Shown one piece after another: positions 25,618 through 36,090 of a stretch of DNA of 64,000 bases. The stretch comes from an uncultured Coriobacteriaceae bacterium. Its GTDB lineage: Bacteria > Actinomycetota > Coriobacteriia > Coriobacteriales > Coriobacteriaceae. How positions within the stretch are numbered: the first letter of the stretch is position 1; every line of letters starts with the position of its first letter. Position numbers and translations under genes: made by a program. The DNA is taken from assembly GCA_944319885.1 (NCBI GenBank), contig CALUFC010000001.1, positions 62,001-126,000 of the forward strand. Direction: 5' to 3'. Under the pieces are notes generated by a model, which was not told where the DNA came from, searched no databases, and was given only the letters and a program-made list of their open reading frames with translations.

Positions 25618-25886
25618 CACATTTTTTATTTTTCTCCGAAGTGATTGTCCGCACGCTGAAACGCGAAGGACATACCGCGAACGACGAAACCTGTTGACTT
25701 CGTGGTCTTCACGCGAGAGAGCCTTGGAACCCCGCATAAACCTCCATGCGAACACCTCGTGGTAGCAGCATGGATAGAATCGGCTGCATCCGTGGTGAGA
25801 TAGCTGTCAGACATCTGCAAGACAACGCGCGCAAACCCTCGAATCGCCCGCGGTATCCTCCTCTCCCCTCGGGGAAAGGAGGATCC
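25618..25886 (+). other. Leader/upstream region of the adhesin operon
   Basis: About 270 nt between the tRNA promoter and the adhesin start. An open frame continues upstream of the adhesin to 25746, but the AAAGGAGG ribosome site at 25876-25883 fixes the GTG at 25887. TTGACT at 25692-25697 could be a -35 for the adhesin operon; I see no good -10 at 17 nt. No RNA gene recognised. Confidence 0.45.
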
Positions 25887-28800
25887 GTGTCACATCACCG
25901 TATCAAAACGATCCACAGGGCCGTCGCACTCGCCATGTCGGTGGTGCTCATGGCATCAAGCGTGCTCGGTGCGCTATCGGGCTGCATGCCACGCTCCGCC
26001 TATGCAGAGGACGGCTGGGAGCCCATGGGGTTCCGCACGGCCACGAGAAGCCTTGGACCCTATGCCAACATGGGTACGTACGAAGCGCAAGACGGAACCG
26101 TCGCGTACTGCCTGAACGCCGAATCGGTGGGACCGTCGACCGTTGGCGCGGGCTTTACGCTGTACAACCGCGGTTGGAGTTGGGTGAACGACGTCTACGC
26201 CGCGGTGACCTACCATGGCTACCCCAACAACACGACCATCGGCGGCGTGACCCTGAGCGCCGACGAGGCCCGTGCGGCCACGCAGATCGCCATCTACATG
26301 CTCAACGGCACCTGCGACCGCGACGGCAACTACAGCTACATCAACTATGCCGGCGCGCATGCCCAGGGCTATTGGGGCGGCACCGAGAGCAAAGACCGCT
26401 GCATCGCCGCAGCGCGCTACCTCTACGATGGCGCGCAGGCAGGAACGCTCACAGCACCGGTCAACACGGCGCGTCGATACAACTACGTTGTTTCGGCGGC
26501 GGGCAACAACCGACAGAACATGCTGTATGTCATCTACTGCCCCTCGGTCCGCGTGAACTTCACCAAAACCTCGATGCAAGCCGAGCTCAGCAATGCCAAC
26601 AGCGCATACTCGCTTGAGGGAGCGGTGTACGAGATTCATCTGGCGAGCAACGACAACCTCGTGGGCACCATCACCACCGATGCGAACGGAAGCGCCTCGC
26701 TCGAACTCGCGCCAAACGAGAACTATTACGCGATCGAGATCACCGCACCGCAGGGATTTGTGCGCAACCCCGATCGCATCGCGTTCAACTCGGGCAGCGG
26801 TGCGAGCGTATCGTTGCCCGATCAGCCTGGTACCGTGCGCGTTACCCTGCAGAAACGCGACTCCTCAAGCGGTACGGAAGCCCAGCGCGGCGCCTCGCTT
26901 GCAGGAGCGGAGTTCAAGCTCGTCGACGCGATGGGCACAAGCCATCTTGCAACCACGAACGAGGCGGGACAGGCATTTTTCGGCGACACCGATGACGACA
27001 GCATACCGCTTGGCCCCTACACCATCACCGAGGTCACCGCTCCGGCAGGATACCGCCTCTCGGAGGAGCAGATCAGCGGGACTGCGCAGGCCGACGCCAT
27101 GAACGATGCGGGTATCGTTATGGTCGAAGCCGCGATCGATGAGCATGCGATCGCCTTCGACCTCGATATCACGAAGTACACCGACACCGGGCAGGAGGGC
27201 TCGGGCGTGCAGACGCCCGGCGAAGACGTGGTGTTCGAGATTATCTCCAACACAACCAACGAAGTCGTGGGCACCATCGAAACGGATGAGAACGGCGTCG
27301 CCACCACCGCGGGCATGTGGTTTGGCGCCGGTGAGCGCGCGGAGGGCGTACATGGAGCGCTCCCCTGGGATGGGGCCGGCTACACGGTTCGCGAAGCGTC
27401 CGACAGCGCACCGCCGGGCTATCTACCCGCGCCGAGCTGGAACATCGATGCCAACGTCATCAAAGACGGTGTGACGCTGCACTATATCGTCGACAACGAC
27501 CTCTTGCAGAGCCGCATCCAGATTGTGAAGGCCGACGCCGAAACGGGAGACACGATACCGCTCGCAGGGTTTACCTTCCAGCTTCTCGACCATGAAAAGC
27601 AGCCCATCACGCAAGAGGTCTGGCATCCGGAGCATCAGGAGCTGCACACATTCACCACCGATGAGAACGGCACCGTCACCCTACCTGAGCCCCTCACCGT
27701 GGGAACGTACTACATCCGCGAGATCGAGGCGGTGGCGCCCTACCTTACTTGCGGCGACGATATCGAGGTGATCATAGAAGACCGCGATGACCTGCCGCCC
27801 GTGACCGTGGTAACCATATCCGACGATGCGGCGGTTGGACGCGCCACGATTACCAAGACATGCCGCGAGGGAGACGCCTGCGCAACGCATCTCGCCGGCG
27901 CTGAGTTCGACGTCATCGCGGTAGATGACGTGATCTCCCCCACCGGTGCCACCCAAGCTGTCGCCGGCGAGGCGATCGACCACGTTGTCATCGGCGAAGA
28001 CGGTACGGCCACAACGGCAGATCTGCCGCTCGGCAGCGGCAGCGCCACCTATGCCTTCAAGGAAACGAAACCACCTGCAGGACACGTGCTCGATGAGGAG
28101 CTTCATGAGTTCACCGTCACCTATGAAGACGATGAGACCCCGGTGGTGCACGCATCGGTAACGGTGGAAAACGAGCCCACTGAGCTGCTGGTCGATAAAA
28201 CCATCCTTGGAAGCGATACACCGCTCGCTAACGCCACCTTTGAGCTGTGGAACGCCAAGGACGAGGTTTCGATACGATCCGAAGATGGTTGCGCTGGCGT
28301 TGCCATTCGCGCAGAAGATGTCGGTGAGGTTTCGCTTGTCCAACAGGTCGATGAGGCACTGGTGGCCGCAACGCTACCTGCAGGATGGTCTGCGGTGCTT
28401 GTTGCAGGACAGGACCGGTGGGCGCTCACCGAGACACCATGCGCCGTTGAGCCCGGTGCCTATACACTTTCGGTGATCGACGCGGACGGCACCACCGTCG
28501 AGATAGATATGGGCGATGCCCTCGAGGTGGAAGCAGGCATGAGCTACAACGTTGCTGGCGATGAGGGATTGCTCGCGTCGGGCAGCGCGCATATCGATGC
28601 GGCGTCCGTTGACGCCAAGCAGCAGGCACTCGCTGTAAACGATGGGCTGGGAGCATGGATATCGACCGCCGTCACGCCAGGGAGCTGGCATGTTGTCACT
28701 GATGGGCAGGAGTGCGGCACGCTCGAGGTTCACGATGGCGACCTTTGGTATGGCATGATCTCGGAAGGAACGGTGGTCGAAAGCGGCTATCTCTTGCAGC

Positions 28801-30251
28801 CCGGTGCCGAGCACACAAGCCATACCACCGATGAGGACGGCATCATCCGTATCGATCATATCGTGCCTGGATCGTATGGGCTGCGCGAGATCGACGCCCC
28901 GGATGGCTACCTCGTCGATGATACGACGCACCGCTTCACCGTCGACGCGCAGGGAAAGATTGAGGGGTTGCCCAGCTACACGCTCGACATCGAAGATGAC
29001 TACACCAAGGTCGATCTTTCGAAGCGCGACATCACCAACGAAGATGAGATCCCAGGCGCTCATATGGCGCTGCTCGATCATGAGGGCACGATCCTTGCAA
29101 CGTGGACTTCTGGAGAGGAGGACCACCGTATCGATGCGCTTGCACCCGGTGCGTACACGCTGGTTGAGACCATGACGCCCCATGGGTATGATGTTGCGAC
29201 CGCCGTCGATTTCACCGTGCATCCCACGGGCGAGGTGCAGCGCGTTGTGATGTACGATGAGCCCATCGAGGTTTCCGGTGAGATTGATAAGCGGCAGGAG
29301 ATCTGCGATCCGGTGCATCCCGGTACCGAGGCAAACGGCGACGGCGCGAATAAAGCCGAGACCGCGGTTTCCGATACCGGCACCTACCGATACTCGATCG
29401 ACATGAGAAACACGAGCTCAACCTGGGTCGATGAGTTCACGGTAACCGATACCATCGATGGCGCGGCGGCTGGGCTCGTAACGCTCGACAGCATCACCAC
29501 GCCGGCGGCTGCCGAGGACTACGACGGAAAGCTCAACGTATGGTTCTCGACGAACGAAACCGATGCCGCTTACCGTGATCCCGCTGGTGCGAATGCCACG
29601 CTCGGCGATGGCCATGAGAACCCATGGCTCACGCACGAGTCGATCGCGGAGCGGCTCGGCGACGATGGTCGTGCGGTGTCCTACGATGGTTGGCGTCTCT
29701 GGGCGCAGGATGTCGACGCCACCACACCGACCACGCTCGACGTTGCTGATCTCGACCTCGGAGATGGCGAGGTTGTGTGCGCGGTGCGCTTGGAATATGG
29801 GCGCGTTGAAGCCGGTTTCACCTCGCGTGCAGACGATTGGGACCGCCTGAACATCAAAGACGAACACGACGATGTAAACGACTTGGTGGCATACGCCGAC
29901 GCGCGCAGAAACGACGATGGGGACGTGCTGTTCGCACCGCTGCTGCTCGCGCTTCATGCAACCGATGCATACCAGGCCGGCACCTCGCTGGAGAACCAGG
30001 CACAGGTCGATCTCTTCCGCAACGGAGGATCAACCGAAGATGGTGAGCGGCTGGAAGACCATGACCAAGATCGCGTAGTCCAGACCCCTGCGCCCGGTGC
30101 ATCGCCCCGGCTCGACCAAACCGGACGCGATGAGCTCGCTCCCGCATTACTAGTTGCTGGCACGGGTGCGGCGGGCATCGCGGGCGTGCTTTGGCTGCGC
30201 ACCACCAAGCAACGCATACTCCCTCGCAGGTCGAGCAGGCGGCACACGTGA
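25887..30251 (+). CDS. Thioester-domain (TQXA) adhesin with Cna-B/SpaA repeats and LDQTG sorting signal
   Basis: 1454-aa surface protein. Signal peptide 1-40 (cleavage AYA|ED; a lipobox-like LSGC lies inside). Residues 44-150 form a thioester domain: YCLN (Cys75) and TQIAIYML (Gln133) are the expected pair for an internal Cys-Gln thioester that can bind host amines covalently. Then come about seven Cna-B/SpaA-type beta-sandwich repeats, recognisable by recurrent ITAPQGF, VTAPAGY, TKPPAGH and IDAPDGY motifs containing or following Glu, and opening Lys strands (FTKTS, LQKRD, ITKY, IVKAD, ITKT), as for isopeptide-stabilised stalks. A longer last module (about 1130-1390) is followed by LDQTG (1409-1413), a hydrophobic helix and an Arg-rich tail. 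GTG start after perfect AAAGGAGG. The sortase gene overlaps its stop. Likely a host or mucus adhesin; target unknown. Confidence 0.9.
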   Translation: MSHHRIKTIHRAVALAMSVVLMASSVLGALSGCMPRSAYAEDGWEPMGFRTATRSLGPYANMGTYEAQDGTVAYCLNAESVGPSTVGAGFTLYNRGWSWVNDVYAAVTYHGYPNNTTIGGVTLSADEARAATQIAIYMLNGTCDRDGNYSYINYAGAHAQGYWGGTESKDRCIAAARYLYDGAQAGTLTAPVNTARRYNYVVSAAGNNRQNMLYVIYCPSVRVNFTKTSMQAELSNANSAYSLEGAVYEIHLASNDNLVGTITTDANGSASLELAPNENYYAIEITAPQGFVRNPDRIAFNSGSGASVSLPDQPGTVRVTLQKRDSSSGTEAQRGASLAGAEFKLVDAMGTSHLATTNEAGQAFFGDTDDDSIPLGPYTITEVTAPAGYRLSEEQISGTAQADAMNDAGIVMVEAAIDEHAIAFDLDITKYTDTGQEGSGVQTPGEDVVFEIISNTTNEVVGTIETDENGVATTAGMWFGAGERAEGVHGALPWDGAGYTVREASDSAPPGYLPAPSWNIDANVIKDGVTLHYIVDNDLLQSRIQIVKADAETGDTIPLAGFTFQLLDHEKQPITQEVWHPEHQELHTFTTDENGTVTLPEPLTVGTYYIREIEAVAPYLTCGDDIEVIIEDRDDLPPVTVVTISDDAAVGRATITKTCREGDACATHLAGAEFDVIAVDDVISPTGATQAVAGEAIDHVVIGEDGTATTADLPLGSGSATYAFKETKPPAGHVLDEELHEFTVTYEDDETPVVHASVTVENEPTELLVDKTILGSDTPLANATFELWNAKDEVSIRSEDGCAGVAIRAEDVGEVSLVQQVDEALVAATLPAGWSAVLVAGQDRWALTETPCAVEPGAYTLSVIDADGTTVEIDMGDALEVEAGMSYNVAGDEGLLASGSAHIDAASVDAKQQALAVNDGLGAWISTAVTPGSWHVVTDGQECGTLEVHDGDLWYGMISEGTVVESGYLLQPGAEHTSHTTDEDGIIRIDHIVPGSYGLREIDAPDGYLVDDTTHRFTVDAQGKIEGLPSYTLDIEDDYTKVDLSKRDITNEDEIPGAHMALLDHEGTILATWTSGEEDHRIDALAPGAYTLVETMTPHGYDVATAVDFTVHPTGEVQRVVMYDEPIEVSGEIDKRQEICDPVHPGTEANGDGANKAETAVSDTGTYRYSIDMRNTSSTWVDEFTVTDTIDGAAAGLVTLDSITTPAAAEDYDGKLNVWFSTNETDAAYRDPAGANATLGDGHENPWLTHESIAERLGDDGRAVSYDGWRLWAQDVDATTPTTLDVADLDLGDGEVVCAVRLEYGRVEAGFTSRADDWDRLNIKDEHDDVNDLVAYADARRNDDGDVLFAPLLLALHATDAYQAGTSLENQAQVDLFRNGGSTEDGERLEDHDQDRVVQTPAPGASPRLDQTGRDELAPALLVAGTGAAGIAGVLWLRTTKQRILPRRSSRRHT

Positions 30252-30979
30252 ACACCAGACGCTTCATACGAACGACATCTGCGCTGGTTGCCTGCACGTG
30301 TCTGGCGTGCGCGGGAAGCCTCTGTGCCCACGAGGACGGCACGGCCGCCGCATACGAGCGGCTCGCACGCAATAAAAGCGTTGTGACGCAGCGCACCGAG
30401 CAAGGCGAGCCAGTGGATGCCACCGCCCTGCCCGCCTCCTGCTGGCTCACCGTCGAGGGCACCCCGATCGACTATCCCGTCATGGAACCGGACGATGCCA
30501 CGCCAGACGGATGGTATCTCACGCATGACGCCTGGGGCGTCCCCTCGCGGCTCGGTGCGCTCTATATCGATACGCGGACATCGAGCACGCGGCGCCACGT
30601 CTTGATATACGGACATAAAGCCGGGTCATCCAAGAGGATGTTTGGGAGTATCTCCGATGCCTATGAACCACAGAGCTTCGAGCGTATTGGCAGCGCCCAA
30701 TTCCTGGACCGTGATGGCTGGCACACCTTCTCGCCGCTGTGCGCGCTCAAGGTGCCAGCAGATTATCAAGCTATCCAGCGCTTTTCCTGGACAGATGCCT
30801 CTTGCGTGGGAATGTTCGCCCACGATATCGCACGGCAGGCAGATGCTCGATCGAGCGATTGGGACACGCAATCCCTAGCGGCCGCGCGCGTCCTCACGCT
30901 TGTAACCTGCACGCAGGCGACACCCGGCGGACATGAACGGACCCTCCTGCTCTTCACTGAGCAAGAGGGTCCCTCATAA
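30248..30979 (+). CDS. Class B sortase dedicated to the adjacent adhesin
   Basis: Membrane-anchored transpeptidase, 243 aa, with an N-terminal signal anchor (about 5-27). Class B features in order: IDYPVME, WYLTHDAWGVPSRLGALYID, YGHKAGSSKRMFGSI (catalytic His123), TLVTCTQ (catalytic Cys221) and GGHERTLLLF (Arg231). The GTG start at 30248 overlaps the adhesin stop as GTGA, implying translational coupling and a dedicated substrate. It would cleave the adhesin at its unusual LDQTG motif and attach it to peptidoglycan or pilin-like partner. Near the 3' end a hairpin-capable stretch occurs at about 30941-30974. Confidence 0.9.
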   Translation: MNTRRFIRTTSALVACTCLACAGSLCAHEDGTAAAYERLARNKSVVTQRTEQGEPVDATALPASCWLTVEGTPIDYPVMEPDDATPDGWYLTHDAWGVPSRLGALYIDTRTSSTRRHVLIYGHKAGSSKRMFGSISDAYEPQSFERIGSAQFLDRDGWHTFSPLCALKVPADYQAIQRFSWTDASCVGMFAHDIARQADARSSDWDTQSLAAARVLTLVTCTQATPGGHERTLLLFTEQEGPS

Positions 30980-31250: not shown

Positions 31251-34200
31251 TTACGAGCGCCTGATCACTTCCGTGACCACATCGGCAACCATATTGATGT
31301 TGTTGACATCGACGTTGTACGGCAAATCCTCTTCACTGTGCGAGCAGGCAAACGTCGGCCCGTCGATACCCGCAAGCGTGAGCGAGCGCAGGCTCATGCT
31401 CATCGCCGCATAGGCATCGGTGGTGACATACGGCATATCGATGGCGCCGTATTCGTTATGGAACGCCGCCGAGACCTTGCGCACGAGGCCCATGATGCGC
31501 TTGTCGCCCTTGAGCACGCGCTTCTCGCCCTCAGAGGCGACCATGGCGATCTGGCCAGCGCCAACGCACTCGAGATTGATGAGGAACACGCCGCGCAGCT
31601 TGTCGCGATGCGTCTCGAGGAACGCACGGATACCCGCGTTGTCAAACTCAGAGGCACCGGTTGCCACGAACCAGATATCGTGCCCCAAAAGCTCGTCGTC
31701 GCCCAACGAGGTGATGGCATCGCGCATCTGCTCGATGCTCGCCCCCTCGGAGCTGGCGGCGCCGCCCTTCCAGTCATCGTCCTCGAAGTTGTCCCATGAG
31801 CCGATATCGCGGCCAGAGCGCTTGGCATCGAAATCATCATCGACGCCGAGCCAATCGCTCATGCTCGATTCATCGCGCTTCTTGCGACGGAACAGACCGC
31901 CCAGGCCGCGGCGGCGCGGGCGCTCGGCATCGAGCGATGGCGCGTCATCGGCGTGAAGCGTCTCGAACACACCGTCCGTCTCCGGCGCGGCCTCGGGCGC
32001 GGCGGGCGAGCTGATGACGGTGAAGCCGTTGCTCGTGACCTCAGGAGCGGTAACGCGCGGAGCAGCCGCCGTCACATCGGACGACAGCGGATCGCGGGCA
32101 TCGGCGAGCGGATCGGGAAGGTCGAACAGCGAGGCGCGGTTAACCGATGTAGGTTGGTGCAGCGAGGGCTGCGAAGGATCGGGAACCACCAGCGGCACCT
32201 GACGCGGCGCGGCGGGCTTGGGATTGTGCGCCGAAATCTCGGCCATGAGCGAATCGACCGTCTCAGCCGGGCTCTTGGGTGCCGGTGACACCGGCTGCTG
32301 GGCAACCGTAGCACCCAAGTCATCCGCGGCAACGGGCTTCATCGTCGACATATCGAACGCCTGCGTGGCCCCGGAAGCATCTGCATCGACGCCGGCGAGC
32401 ACGGAGGCCATGTTCGTAGCCACCGTCGCACCGGGATCGATGGGCTCCTCCTCGTGCTCCGGCTCCTCCTCGGCATGGGCCTCGCTGTCGGCGGGCTCCT
32501 CCTCGGCTGCGGGTGCCTCGGAAGCCTCATCCTCGACGTCTGCCTCCAGCTCTTCAGGAGAGGCGGGAGTCTCGTCGTGATCGGGCTCGGTTTCTGACTC
32601 GCCTGAGAACTCGGCTGCGGGCTCAGCTGCAAGCTCGTCTGAGGGCGCAACCATTTCGCCATCGGCAGCCGGCTGCTCGTCCACAACCTCGTCTTCGAGC
32701 TCCTCCGGCTCCTGGCGCATGGACGCTACGGCATCGCGGGCAGCAGCTTCGATGTTCTCCAATGCGCTCTTACCGCGCGCGAGCGCGTTATCGAAGAAGC
32801 GCGAGGCGCGGGTACCAAACGCGGACAGCGACTCCATGAAGCCACCGTTTGCCTGGCTGTAATCCGACGAGGGATCGAGCGCCTGCTGGCCGTACTCGTC
32901 GTAGTACTCGTCCTCGGCGTAGTCGTAACCCTCTTCATCGATGCCCTCATCGAGCTCTTCGTCGTACAACGTGGGATCGAACTCGCCCTCGGTCTCGATT
33001 TCGACGTCATCTTCGGATTCATCGATCTCGATGGCCTCGTCATCCTCGACGGGAAGCTCCTCATACGGCTCATCGGTCTCGATTTCGATCTCGTCCGCAT
33101 CCACGTACGGCTCGTCGGTCTCGACCTCAGGCTCGACGGTCATCGCGTCGTCGATTTCGACATCGGCCTTGACCTCCGGCACCGGCGCCACCGGCATGGC
33201 GTCGGGCTCATATTCGATCGCGCACGAGGGGGCGAGCATGCCGAGTGAACGGATGACGTCGCCACCGAAGCGGTAGTTGCCCGCTGCGTTCACGATACCG
33301 GGCTCGGGCTCGGCGGCGGGCTCAGGTGCTACTGCCCCCTCCGGCTCCATCGTCTCATCTGCCGCGCCGGATTCGCCGGCGTCGGCGTCTTGCTCGTCAC
33401 CGACCTCGGGAATGATGTCGAGACCGGCAAAGGCATCGTCGGCCTCAGATTCCTCAGCGGCGCCCTCGTCATACGCGCCGGCAGGCTCCGCTACCTCGGC
33501 GGACTCCTCCTGAGGAACATCCTCTCCAGGCTCGACATCGCCTGCGGCATCGGCCGTCTGCGCCGCCGCACCGGCAGCCTGAATAGCGGCCTGAATCTCC
33601 TCCTGCGACATCGCAGAGGTTTCCTGCGTCAGCACCTCATGAATTGCAGTCTGATCGACGGGCGCCTCCTCGGCATCGAGCGCCTTCGTCTGGATCGTCG
33701 CATCTGCCGGTAAAACCGCGGGCATGCTCACCGTGCCACCGAGCTCGGTTGCGGCTGCATCGGAAGTGTCGGCGATCTCCTCGGCGGTTGCCTCGGCACC
33801 GGCGACGGCAGCACCTGCGCCCGCTGCGGCAGCGGCACCGGCAGCGCCAGCGGCAACATCTTGCGCGGCAGAGCGAACGTCCTTCGCCTTCTGCTGCACC
33901 GTCTCCTGCACGGAAGCCGCCTTCGCAGCAAGTTTTTCCTTCAGCGCCCGCGCACCGCGTGCAGCACCCTCACCCTCGGCAGAAGCCTTGCGACGTGCCT
34001 GCTCCTCGGCCTCGGCCTGCGCCTGCGCGTAGATCTGACGCTGGATGCGGCGCTGCTCGGCGAAGTACTTCTCGAAGGGCATGTCGTGCGGGAACTCCTT
34101 CTTCCCGTGGAACGGGGAGACGGCATCCATGACACCGAGCATCGCGGCAACCGACGACTTATTGCACACCGAACCCGACGTGTAGGGCAGCACGAACCGG

Positions 34201-34829
34201 TTGAGGATGATCGCGATAGCGTTGATAAGCGGAATGAGCGCTGTGATGAGCGCCACGATCCACAGCACGATCTTGGCAACCTCGGGCAGCGGGAACAGCC
34301 TGAGTACGGCAACCACGGCCGGCACCAGCATCGCATACGGCAGCAACTTCACCAGCATGGGCTTGTAGGCTGCATACGGCATGTTCGAAAGGATATCGGC
34401 GCGCGGCGAATCATAGTGCGCCACCACCACAACCGGACGATTGCGCGGCGAGGCAAGAGGGCCGGACGCCTTGTGATAGGCGATCACGTTCTGCGAAAGA
34501 CCACCGGCACCCAAGTTGGAGAGCACCGGGCGACCCGTGCGCTCCATCCAAAACAGCACGGCTGCCGCAAGCACCAGCAGAAGACCGATGATGGCAAATG
34601 CGCCGCCCAGGATGAGGAACAAGGTTCCCACGAAGAGCACGATGCCCAGCACCGCGGTCACGATCTTGGTTGAACCGGAGGCGCTGAACTCCTGGATCTC
34701 GGGCTCAAACCCATGGTTGACGAAAATCTGAGCGATGTCCTCAGCCGCTTCGCGCTCCTCCTCGCTGCAGGCAGGCGTGATGCCCGTGTTCTGGAGAAGG
34801 TGGTTGAGATATTTACGGGTAGTAGCCAT
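31251..34829 (-). CDS. M28-peptidase-like membrane protein with ~770-aa acidic insertion
   Basis: 1192 aa, start at 34829 (MATTRKYLNHLL) after GGAG. N-terminal half of an M28 zinc-aminopeptidase fold is interrupted by hydrophobic helices (55-95, 155-215): VVVVAHYDSP keeps His138 and Asp140, but the DNASG-type motif reads VCNKSSVAAML, with Cys222 where the bridging Asp is expected. Residues about 250-1020 are an Ala/Glu/Asp-rich, apparently disordered insertion. The C-terminal half resumes with FVATGASEFDNAG (Ser1060 in place of the catalytic Glu), LINLECVG (Glu1087) and CSHSEEDLPYN (His1164). So the fold is recognisable while two key residues are changed; it may be an inactive scaffold. Followed by a small acidic membrane protein. 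Confidence 0.75.
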   Translation of the reverse strand: MATTRKYLNHLLQNTGITPACSEEEREAAEDIAQIFVNHGFEPEIQEFSASGSTKIVTAVLGIVLFVGTLFLILGGAFAIIGLLLVLAAAVLFWMERTGRPVLSNLGAGGLSQNVIAYHKASGPLASPRNRPVVVVAHYDSPRADILSNMPYAAYKPMLVKLLPYAMLVPAVVAVLRLFPLPEVAKIVLWIVALITALIPLINAIAIILNRFVLPYTSGSVCNKSSVAAMLGVMDAVSPFHGKKEFPHDMPFEKYFAEQRRIQRQIYAQAQAEAEEQARRKASAEGEGAARGARALKEKLAAKAASVQETVQQKAKDVRSAAQDVAAGAAGAAAAAGAGAAVAGAEATAEEIADTSDAAATELGGTVSMPAVLPADATIQTKALDAEEAPVDQTAIHEVLTQETSAMSQEEIQAAIQAAGAAAQTADAAGDVEPGEDVPQEESAEVAEPAGAYDEGAAEESEADDAFAGLDIIPEVGDEQDADAGESGAADETMEPEGAVAPEPAAEPEPGIVNAAGNYRFGGDVIRSLGMLAPSCAIEYEPDAMPVAPVPEVKADVEIDDAMTVEPEVETDEPYVDADEIEIETDEPYEELPVEDDEAIEIDESEDDVEIETEGEFDPTLYDEELDEGIDEEGYDYAEDEYYDEYGQQALDPSSDYSQANGGFMESLSAFGTRASRFFDNALARGKSALENIEAAARDAVASMRQEPEELEDEVVDEQPAADGEMVAPSDELAAEPAAEFSGESETEPDHDETPASPEELEADVEDEASEAPAAEEEPADSEAHAEEEPEHEEEPIDPGATVATNMASVLAGVDADASGATQAFDMSTMKPVAADDLGATVAQQPVSPAPKSPAETVDSLMAEISAHNPKPAAPRQVPLVVPDPSQPSLHQPTSVNRASLFDLPDPLADARDPLSSDVTAAAPRVTAPEVTSNGFTVISSPAAPEAAPETDGVFETLHADDAPSLDAERPRRRGLGGLFRRKKRDESSMSDWLGVDDDFDAKRSGRDIGSWDNFEDDDWKGGAASSEGASIEQMRDAITSLGDDELLGHDIWFVATGASEFDNAGIRAFLETHRDKLRGVFLINLECVGAGQIAMVASEGEKRVLKGDKRIMGLVRKVSAAFHNEYGAIDMPYVTTDAYAAMSMSLRSLTLAGIDGPTFACSHSEEDLPYNVDVNNINMVADVVTEVIRRS

Positions 34830-35067
34830 CGGCGCTCCGTGTCCTTGTTCGTTTATGAGAGGTCGCCCGGGTGCGCGGGCGCCCGGATAACTCGTACATA
34901 GTCGCAAGTATACCCCGAGTTCAGCATTTCTGCAGCTATTGCAGGTGAGCGGCCCGCACGGTGATGCAGATACACGCCAATCTCCATATCGATTAGAATG
35001 TGCCAAGATACGGATGGTCCATCGGGCCCCGTACCTGAGCAGCCATGCACCGTAAGGAGGGATGACG

Positions 35068-36090
35068 ATGGCGTCGACCGAGCGCGATCCACAAGCGCGG
35101 CATGACGAGACGGCGCAGCGCCTCCTCAACCTATTCTTTATCCTCAACACCTCTCCGGTGCCCCTCACCACCACCCAGATCGTTACCGATACCGATCTGG
35201 GCTACGGTTCTTCAAACCGCGCATCCGACGAGCGGAAGTTCCGGCGCGATCGCCGCAAGTTGGAAGAACAGGGCATCTTTATTCAAGAGATCACGGACGC
35301 GCTTTCGTCTGAAATCGAGGAAAGCTCGTGGGCCATCGGTCGCGAGAGCACCTATTCCTGCGGCGGCATCCTCTCCGCTGACGATGTCGACGTCCTGCTC
35401 CAGGGCATCGATGAGTATCTAAGCGCGGGTCCCACGCCGCTGGCACGCCCGCTTCATGCCGTGCGCATGCGCGCGCTCGAAGCGAAGGCGCACGAAGACG
35501 GTGCGGCATTGGGCGAACCTGAGCCAGTGAGCTCCTATCAGCCGCAGCTCGACGCGGTGTGGACCGCTTTTGCACGGCGTGCTGCGCTCACCATGCTGTA
35601 CCAGAATGCGCAGGGCGATTCGAGCAAGCGGACGGTTGCCATCTACGGCCTGTTCACACAGGGGGAGCACACCTACATCACTGGATACGACGATGTGGCG
35701 GGTGGCATCCGGACGTTTCGCGTCGATCGGATCGTGCGCGCGTGGCGGCCCACCAAGCCCTACACGATTCCCGCCGACTTTGATATCGACGATTACCTGT
35801 TCTTCCCCTTCGACCTCTCGGATGAAGCCTGCACCCATGCCACGTTCGCCTTTCCCGCCGAGCGAAGCGAGACGGAGGTTGCAGCTTGCACGCATCATCG
35901 CGGCACCCTCGAGCGCAACGGAGATGGCTGCTGGGTCTGGCATATCGACGTACGCGATGTACCGGCGGCGGCATCGCTCGCGCTGTCCCACGCACGCGAC
36001 GGCATGCGTCCCCTGGGACCTCCCGAACTTTGCGACGCATGGACGGCAGCACTGCGAGAGGCGGTGAGCGCATATGGCGAAGAGCACTAA
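35068..36090 (+). CDS. WYL-domain transcriptional regulator (first of pair)
   Basis: 340 aa. N-terminal winged helix (about 10-75: RLLNLFFILNTSPVPLTTTQI, FRRDRRKLEEQGIFI) followed by a WYL ligand-sensing domain (about 150-250: RRAALTMLYQNAQG, YGLFTQGEHTYITGYDD, IRTFRVDRIVRAW). Two ATGs lie near the AAGGAGG at 35054-35060; the one at 35068 has the better 7-nt spacing. It overlaps the next WYL gene by 17 nt. Tandem WYL genes in actinobacteria (PafB/PafC) make a DNA-damage-response activator; whether this pair does the same is inference. Confidence 0.85.
   Translation: MASTERDPQARHDETAQRLLNLFFILNTSPVPLTTTQIVTDTDLGYGSSNRASDERKFRRDRRKLEEQGIFIQEITDALSSEIEESSWAIGRESTYSCGGILSADDVDVLLQGIDEYLSAGPTPLARPLHAVRMRALEAKAHEDGAALGEPEPVSSYQPQLDAVWTAFARRAALTMLYQNAQGDSSKRTVAIYGLFTQGEHTYITGYDDVAGGIRTFRVDRIVRAWRPTKPYTIPADFDIDDYLFFPFDLSDEACTHATFAFPAERSETEVAACTHHRGTLERNGDGCWVWHIDVRDVPAAASLALSHARDGMRPLGPPELCDAWTAALREAVSAYGEEH

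Follow-up and report, generated by a model that had tools for sequence, protein, structure and literature searches.

Export through Sec, retention by a sorting signal, cleavage of that signal by a sortase and transfer of the protein to the cell wall are established sortase biology. Characterised sortases, class E excepted, retain a P-X-T core in the motif that they read (PMC5148588), and the substrate range reported for class B enzymes is [ENPQSV]-[APV]-[KQS]-[ST]-[GNS] (PMC11987632). A class B sortase beside its substrate is already known from SrtB-IsdC of Staphylococcus aureus (NPQTN) which, like other cognate class B pairs, combines a shared operon, few substrates, a Gln at motif position 3 (Gln3) and the class B fold. 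It is also known from Cpa/Spy0129 of Streptococcus pyogenes, where a thioester adhesin whose signal (VPPTG or similar) departs from LPXTG is co-located with a class B sortase (PMC3019223, PMC7900414) that serves as pilus polymerase together with a backbone pilin and a SipA/LepA partner. Replacement of the Pro at position 2 is likewise known, from the class E sortases (LAXTG), which have Ala at position 2 and any residue at position 3 (PMC5148588). Thioester adhesins of the TIE type have an N-terminal domain whose Cys lies in [YF]C and whose Gln comes from a late strand; tandem isopeptide-type repeats and a C-terminal sorting signal follow. According to Walden et al. (PMC4450167) the thioester bond joins this late-strand Gln to the Cys, which stands in a [YFL]C motif, whereas the helix with TQxA contributes a Gln that is dispensable and is not the thioester residue.

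The locus described here shares these features with each of the four systems in part. It differs from the TIE-type adhesins in its own linked class B sortase, its LxQTG signal, an extra base domain of 280 aa and a head that is replaced by other domains in relatives. Unlike Cpa/Spy0129 it is a two-gene unit without a pilin, and its signal is LxQTG. Compared with SrtB-IsdC the substrate is an adhesin and not a haem protein, and its motif begins with Leu followed by D/E/F/L, whereas compared with class E the enzyme is of class B, position 2 is free and position 3 is nearly fixed. The range reported for class B, which is descriptive and not strictly defining, includes neither Leu1 nor Asp2 of LDQTG; a Leu1 followed by Asp, Glu or Phe fits neither this range nor the P-X-T core. 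A literature search returned nothing on LDQTG, nor on Collinsella thioester proteins or sortases.

The gene pair

The window, i.e., the whole stretch of 64,000 nucleotides that was analysed (G000:C1:62001-126000), belongs to a 2.0-Mb genome related to Collinsella, Enorma and other Coriobacteriaceae. The features of the pair are as follows.

25875-25882, plus strand: ribosome-binding site AAAGGAGG, 5' of the adhesin GTG start (sequence)
25887-30251, plus strand: adhesin gene, GTG start, 1454-aa product (sequence)
25887-26006, plus strand: predicted adhesin signal peptide, residues 1-40, ending ...AYA before ED (from sequence)
26007-26552, plus strand: thioester domain, residues 41-222 (Pfam PF08341, 4e-9; Cys75 and Gln210 in 19/19)
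26109-26111 and 26514-26516, plus strand: predicted thioester residues Cys75 and Gln210 (alignment of 19 homologues)
26559-29237, plus strand: stalk of about seven SpaA/CnaB (prealbumin-like) repeats, residues 225-1117 (Pfam PF17802, 2.3e-77, seven stretches)
29238-30074, plus strand: conserved base domain, residues 1118-1396, about 280 aa (no Pfam match)
30111-30125, plus strand: sorting motif LDQTG, residues 1409-1413 (sequence)
30126-30251, plus strand: hydrophobic segment, Arg-rich tail and stop codon of the adhesin (sequence)
30248-30979, plus strand: class B sortase, 243 aa, with N-terminal helix anchor (profiles, orthologue alignment, AlphaFold2/Foldseek)
30614-30616, 30908-30910 and 30938-30940, plus strand: sortase catalytic codons His123, Cys221 and Arg231

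The reading frames and the four bases, GTGA, that the genes share had been predicted from the window sequence and are borne out by it. The same holds for the LDQTG motif with its hydrophobic stretch and basic tail, and the approximately seven Cna-B/SpaA-like repeats that had been claimed correspond to the seven SpaA stretches matched by Pfam. In the first repeat, Lys227 and Glu284 are invariant in 33 homologues. With isopeptide-type stalk repeats and a C-terminal sorting signal the predicted adhesin is of the TIE type. The base domain is present in 59 of 67 family genomes and also occurs in other families.

The predicted thioester head

The Pfam thioester domain (PF08341) was matched at residues 72-184 of the adhesin with an E-value of 4e-9, above the cut-off, and the TQXA helix profile matched with a score slightly below its own. 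Cys75 and Gln133 had originally been taken as the thioester pair. Cys75 stands, as it is invariant in 19 of 19 homologous thioester domains; Gln133 does not, being found in only two of the 19, in a column dominated by Ala and Thr. It supplies the Gln of TQXA in the helix of that name. Gln210, by contrast, is invariant (19/19), and the predicted bond is therefore Cys75-Gln210. Absence of the thioester-forming Cys and Gln from homologues had been named beforehand as evidence against the prediction, and both Cys75 and Gln210 were present in all 19 domains. It is thus likely, given these two invariant residues, that a thioester can form in the adhesin, and the head may bind host proteins covalently. 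An AlphaFold2 model of the domain, made with seven sequences, had a pLDDT below 50 over model residues 1-179.

Eleven of the 33 linked relatives lack a recognisable thioester head and carry amidase-like or other heads, so that covalent binding is not a constant feature of the unit. The heads of the 33 adhesins comprise 20 thioester domains of class I, two TED_2, seven with weak similarity to Amidase_6 and four others; only three of the seven Amidase_6-like heads match Pfam at E < 0.01, and the remaining head counts are by sequence similarity. At the loci with Amidase_6-like heads (L048, L049, L050, L051, L053, L060, and L065) the stalk and the neighbouring sortase are unchanged. Across these relatives the heads are exchangeable while the stalk base and the sortase are retained.

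The sortase

His123, Cys221, and Arg231 of the sortase are invariant in all 33 orthologues, and class B membership with this catalytic set, as originally proposed, is supported by the predicted structure, although the curated profiles were matched below their cut-offs. The score against TIGR03064 (the SrtB equivalog) was 47.7 bits (cut-off 153.75) and that against Pfam Sortase 21.2 bits (cut-off 26.6). The AlphaFold2 model had a pLDDT of 86.9, and the 19 best Foldseek matches to it were all solved class B sortases, headed by 4lfd. In the model helices 184-196 and 205-211 lie between strands 157-170 and 214-221, which is the class B beta6/beta7 insertion. The modelled enzyme is thus a divergent class B member and not an SrtB equivalog. 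A search of viral contigs for the sortase gave no match.

A probable anchoring unit and its place in the chromosome

It is probable that the two genes form an anchoring unit, in which a Sec-exported adhesin would be held by its sorting signal until it is cleaved and linked to the wall by the co-translated sortase. From the parts described above we infer how cleavage, wall attachment, the thioester and isopeptide bonds and the target would fit together. The adhesin would be exported by Sec and retained in the membrane by the LDQTG signal, after which the class B sortase would cleave between Thr and Gly and transfer it to the cell wall. The sortase would recognise L-x-Q-T-G through Gln3, tolerating many residues at position 2, and would act on the neighbouring adhesin and not on the LPxTG proteins of the cell's other sortases. 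The isopeptide-type repeats would keep the predicted Cys75-Gln210 thioester at a distance from the cell, free to react with amines of host or neighbouring molecules.

The original prediction called for a search of relatives for linked pairs of adhesin and class B sortase, and an orthologous pair was found in 33 family genomes, which were studied further; sortase matches as such occur in 65 of 67 family genomes, with close ones in about half. The two genes are adjacent in 29 of the 33. The same M28 peptidase gene lies downstream of the pair in 30 of the 33 genomes, and tRNA-Ile/Ala or tRNA-Gly upstream in most of them. These constant neighbours suggest an old locus that has been kept in place and is not mobile. 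In the window the M28-type peptidase gene (31251-35174, minus strand) has a very long acidic, low-complexity insert.

In the other four genomes, all of the Collinsella group, the LDQTG adhesin and the sortase are separated by three small secreted genes (L054 6074-9076, L055 7732-10522, L057 5741-8584, and L071 8940-11753). They encode proteins of about 170-190, 200-240, and 430-545 aa without sorting signals, and may be extra parts of the adhesin-sortase unit. They also count in favour of an alternative that we consider improbable, i.e., that the sortase is a polymerase like the class B Spy0129 of Streptococcus pyogenes pili and links adhesin molecules to one another or to a pilin instead of to the wall. 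Class B sortases are indeed capable of assembling pili by polymerisation and of attaching Cpa, a thioester adhesin (PMC3019223), and the present adhesin resembles the SpaH/EbpB pilins by profile, with scores below the cut-off. However, a further protein whose sorting signal matches was not found beside the pair, nor was a linked backbone pilin, the mark of a Spy0129-like system, in the window or in most relatives. Moreover, the pilus-like cluster on contig C2 of the window's genome comes with its own LPTTG protein and with two sortases different from the present one. Anchoring of the adhesin to the wall is therefore preferred.

The sorting signal and the linked sortase

A comparison of 80 homologous adhesins, 38 with and 42 without an orthologous sortase at the locus, showed Gln at motif position 3 in 35 of the 38 linked and in one of the 42 unlinked proteins, counts taken over genomes and thus overstating independence. 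The linked signals have the form L-[D/A/P/F/E/L]-Q-T-[G...], whereas the unlinked ones read LPATG, LPGTG, LAKTG or similar. Position 2 of the 38 linked adhesins is D in 16, A in 10, P in eight, F in two, and E and L in one each; Asp is found at this position in none of the 42 unlinked adhesins. Within the family the 33 linked motifs are LDQTG (12), LAQTG (6), LPQTG (5), LPRTG (2), LAQTD (2), LFQTG (2), and one each of MPQTS, LDQTA, LEQTG, and LANTG. Outside the family an orthologous sortase accompanies LDQTG (three genomes of one other family of the order), MAQTG and MLQTG, the last in a genome where the sortase is several kilobases from the adhesin, while unlinked homologues there have LPRTA, LPDTG, LPGTG, LAKTG or LARTG. 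Similarly, 23 genomes of one clade, the C. aerofaciens group, so called after two of its strains, carry the adhesin at the equivalent site beside the M28 gene with no sortase, and the signal is LPATG or LPNTG. The exceptions to the rule are two linked LPRTG, one linked LANTG, the unlinked LAQTS of G042, which has no orthologous sortase, and G060, whose genome contains the two genes at distant sites and whose adhesin has LARTG.

As read from these sequences, the sorting signal depends on the presence of the orthologous sortase at the locus. It follows from the Gln3 counts that Gln3 marks the private sortase and that position 2 is free. The anchoring specificity of its own that had been postulated for the unit is thus well supported, the gain and loss of the neighbouring sortase tracking the signal across three families. 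The emphasis on Asp in place of Pro was right in that LDQTG is real, but Asp is not the defining feature, as Gln3 is constant and position 2 varies. Homologues with an ordinary LPXTG, which would have pointed to a local mutation, exist insofar as some linked adhesins have LPQTG; LDQTG nevertheless recurs in several lineages, at 14 homologous loci besides the window, three of them outside the family. Local mutation is ruled out by Asp2 at 16 sortase-linked loci including that of the window, three of which are in another family.

It is conceivable that common descent alone accounts for the association, a small number of old lineages having both traits by chance. In a sign test on linkage changes by independent pairs, the well-supported (starred) branches of the adhesin tree offered one usable pair and significance was not reached. 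The best tree, on the other hand, has at least eight changes of linkage, nine of Gln3 and 19 of position 2, and nearly all unlinked lineages are without Gln3. These include three single-genome losses of linkage among linked relatives: in G008 the sortase is missing at the site and the adhesin is without motif, in G031 the signal is MPKTG, and in G060 the sortase stands alone at the tRNA site (L058 7399-9018) with the adhesin elsewhere (L164 6011-10570) and ending in LARTG. We therefore give ancestry alone little chance of being the explanation, and favour dependence of the signal on the sortase.

Position 2 itself may be matched to the enzyme. Of 206 sortase columns, 136 shows the strongest covariation with it and 124 the second strongest, and residue 124 is basic in 22 of 23 aligned pairs without Pro at position 2 and Ser or Asn in seven of eight pairs with Pro. 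SrtB of S. aureus, which reads NPQTN, also has His at this column. L065 is a counter-example and the independent pairs are too few, so this putative covariation is to be taken as a lead only.

One enzyme and its probable sole substrate

The 43 possible [LF]xQTG-coding sites in the window's genome were read, and the adhesin's is the sole sorting signal among them. Among 14 other wall proteins, taken from sampled stretches of the genus, 12 have Pro2 and two have Gln3, compared with eight and 30 of 33, respectively, for the pairs. The 675 other long open reading frames of the fetched loci contained only one real LxQT[GADS] sorting signal, so that chance does not account for the motif. As the genome holds no other LxQTG signal, the sortase appears to serve a single substrate, the neighbouring adhesin. 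That another sortase anchors the adhesin, LDQTG being drift and the neighbouring sortase serving something else, is very unlikely, for although unlinked homologues with LPxTG or LAxTG must be anchored otherwise and further sortases are present in the genome, the bias in Gln3, the absence of Asp2 from unlinked adhesins and the lack of another LxQTG substrate all speak against it. A one-enzyme, one-substrate anchoring unit is the best reading of the sequence data.

One of the further sortases is a longer class B-like enzyme of 450 aa (L082 8024-9376; G000:C1, about 156-157 kb) with relatives in nearly all family genomes. The only remaining Pfam Sortase matches of the genome are the two at the C2 cluster, and the 450-aa sortase may therefore be the housekeeping enzyme. 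In the sister genome G005 a second adhesin-sortase neighbour pair was seen (contig C8, L085 2262-6972), with a 1311-aa SpaA-repeat protein ending YAKTG, a gap of about 70 bp and a 234-aa class B-like sortase.

Significance

It is tempting to speculate, with slightly less than even confidence, that the linked sortases are a class B clade without the Pro-X-Thr core, which would read L-x-Q-T-G by its Gln while position 2 drifts or co-varies with sortase residues 124 and 136, located after the catalytic His. Each species would then hold a private enzyme-substrate key, and the adhesin head would be swapped between thioester and other domains. The approximately 38 natural enzyme-substrate pairs, in which position 2 is D, A, P, F, E or L, are a data set on the evolution of sortase specificity, to which the many relatives with the enzyme lost and the signal changed add, and the sortase could supply a ligase orthogonal to LPXTG. 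Lists of wall-protein motifs (LPxTG, LAxTG, NPxTG and so on; PMC9210967) miss LDQTG. For the gut Coriobacteriia the pair is a conserved adhesin locus of which no mention was found in the literature searched.
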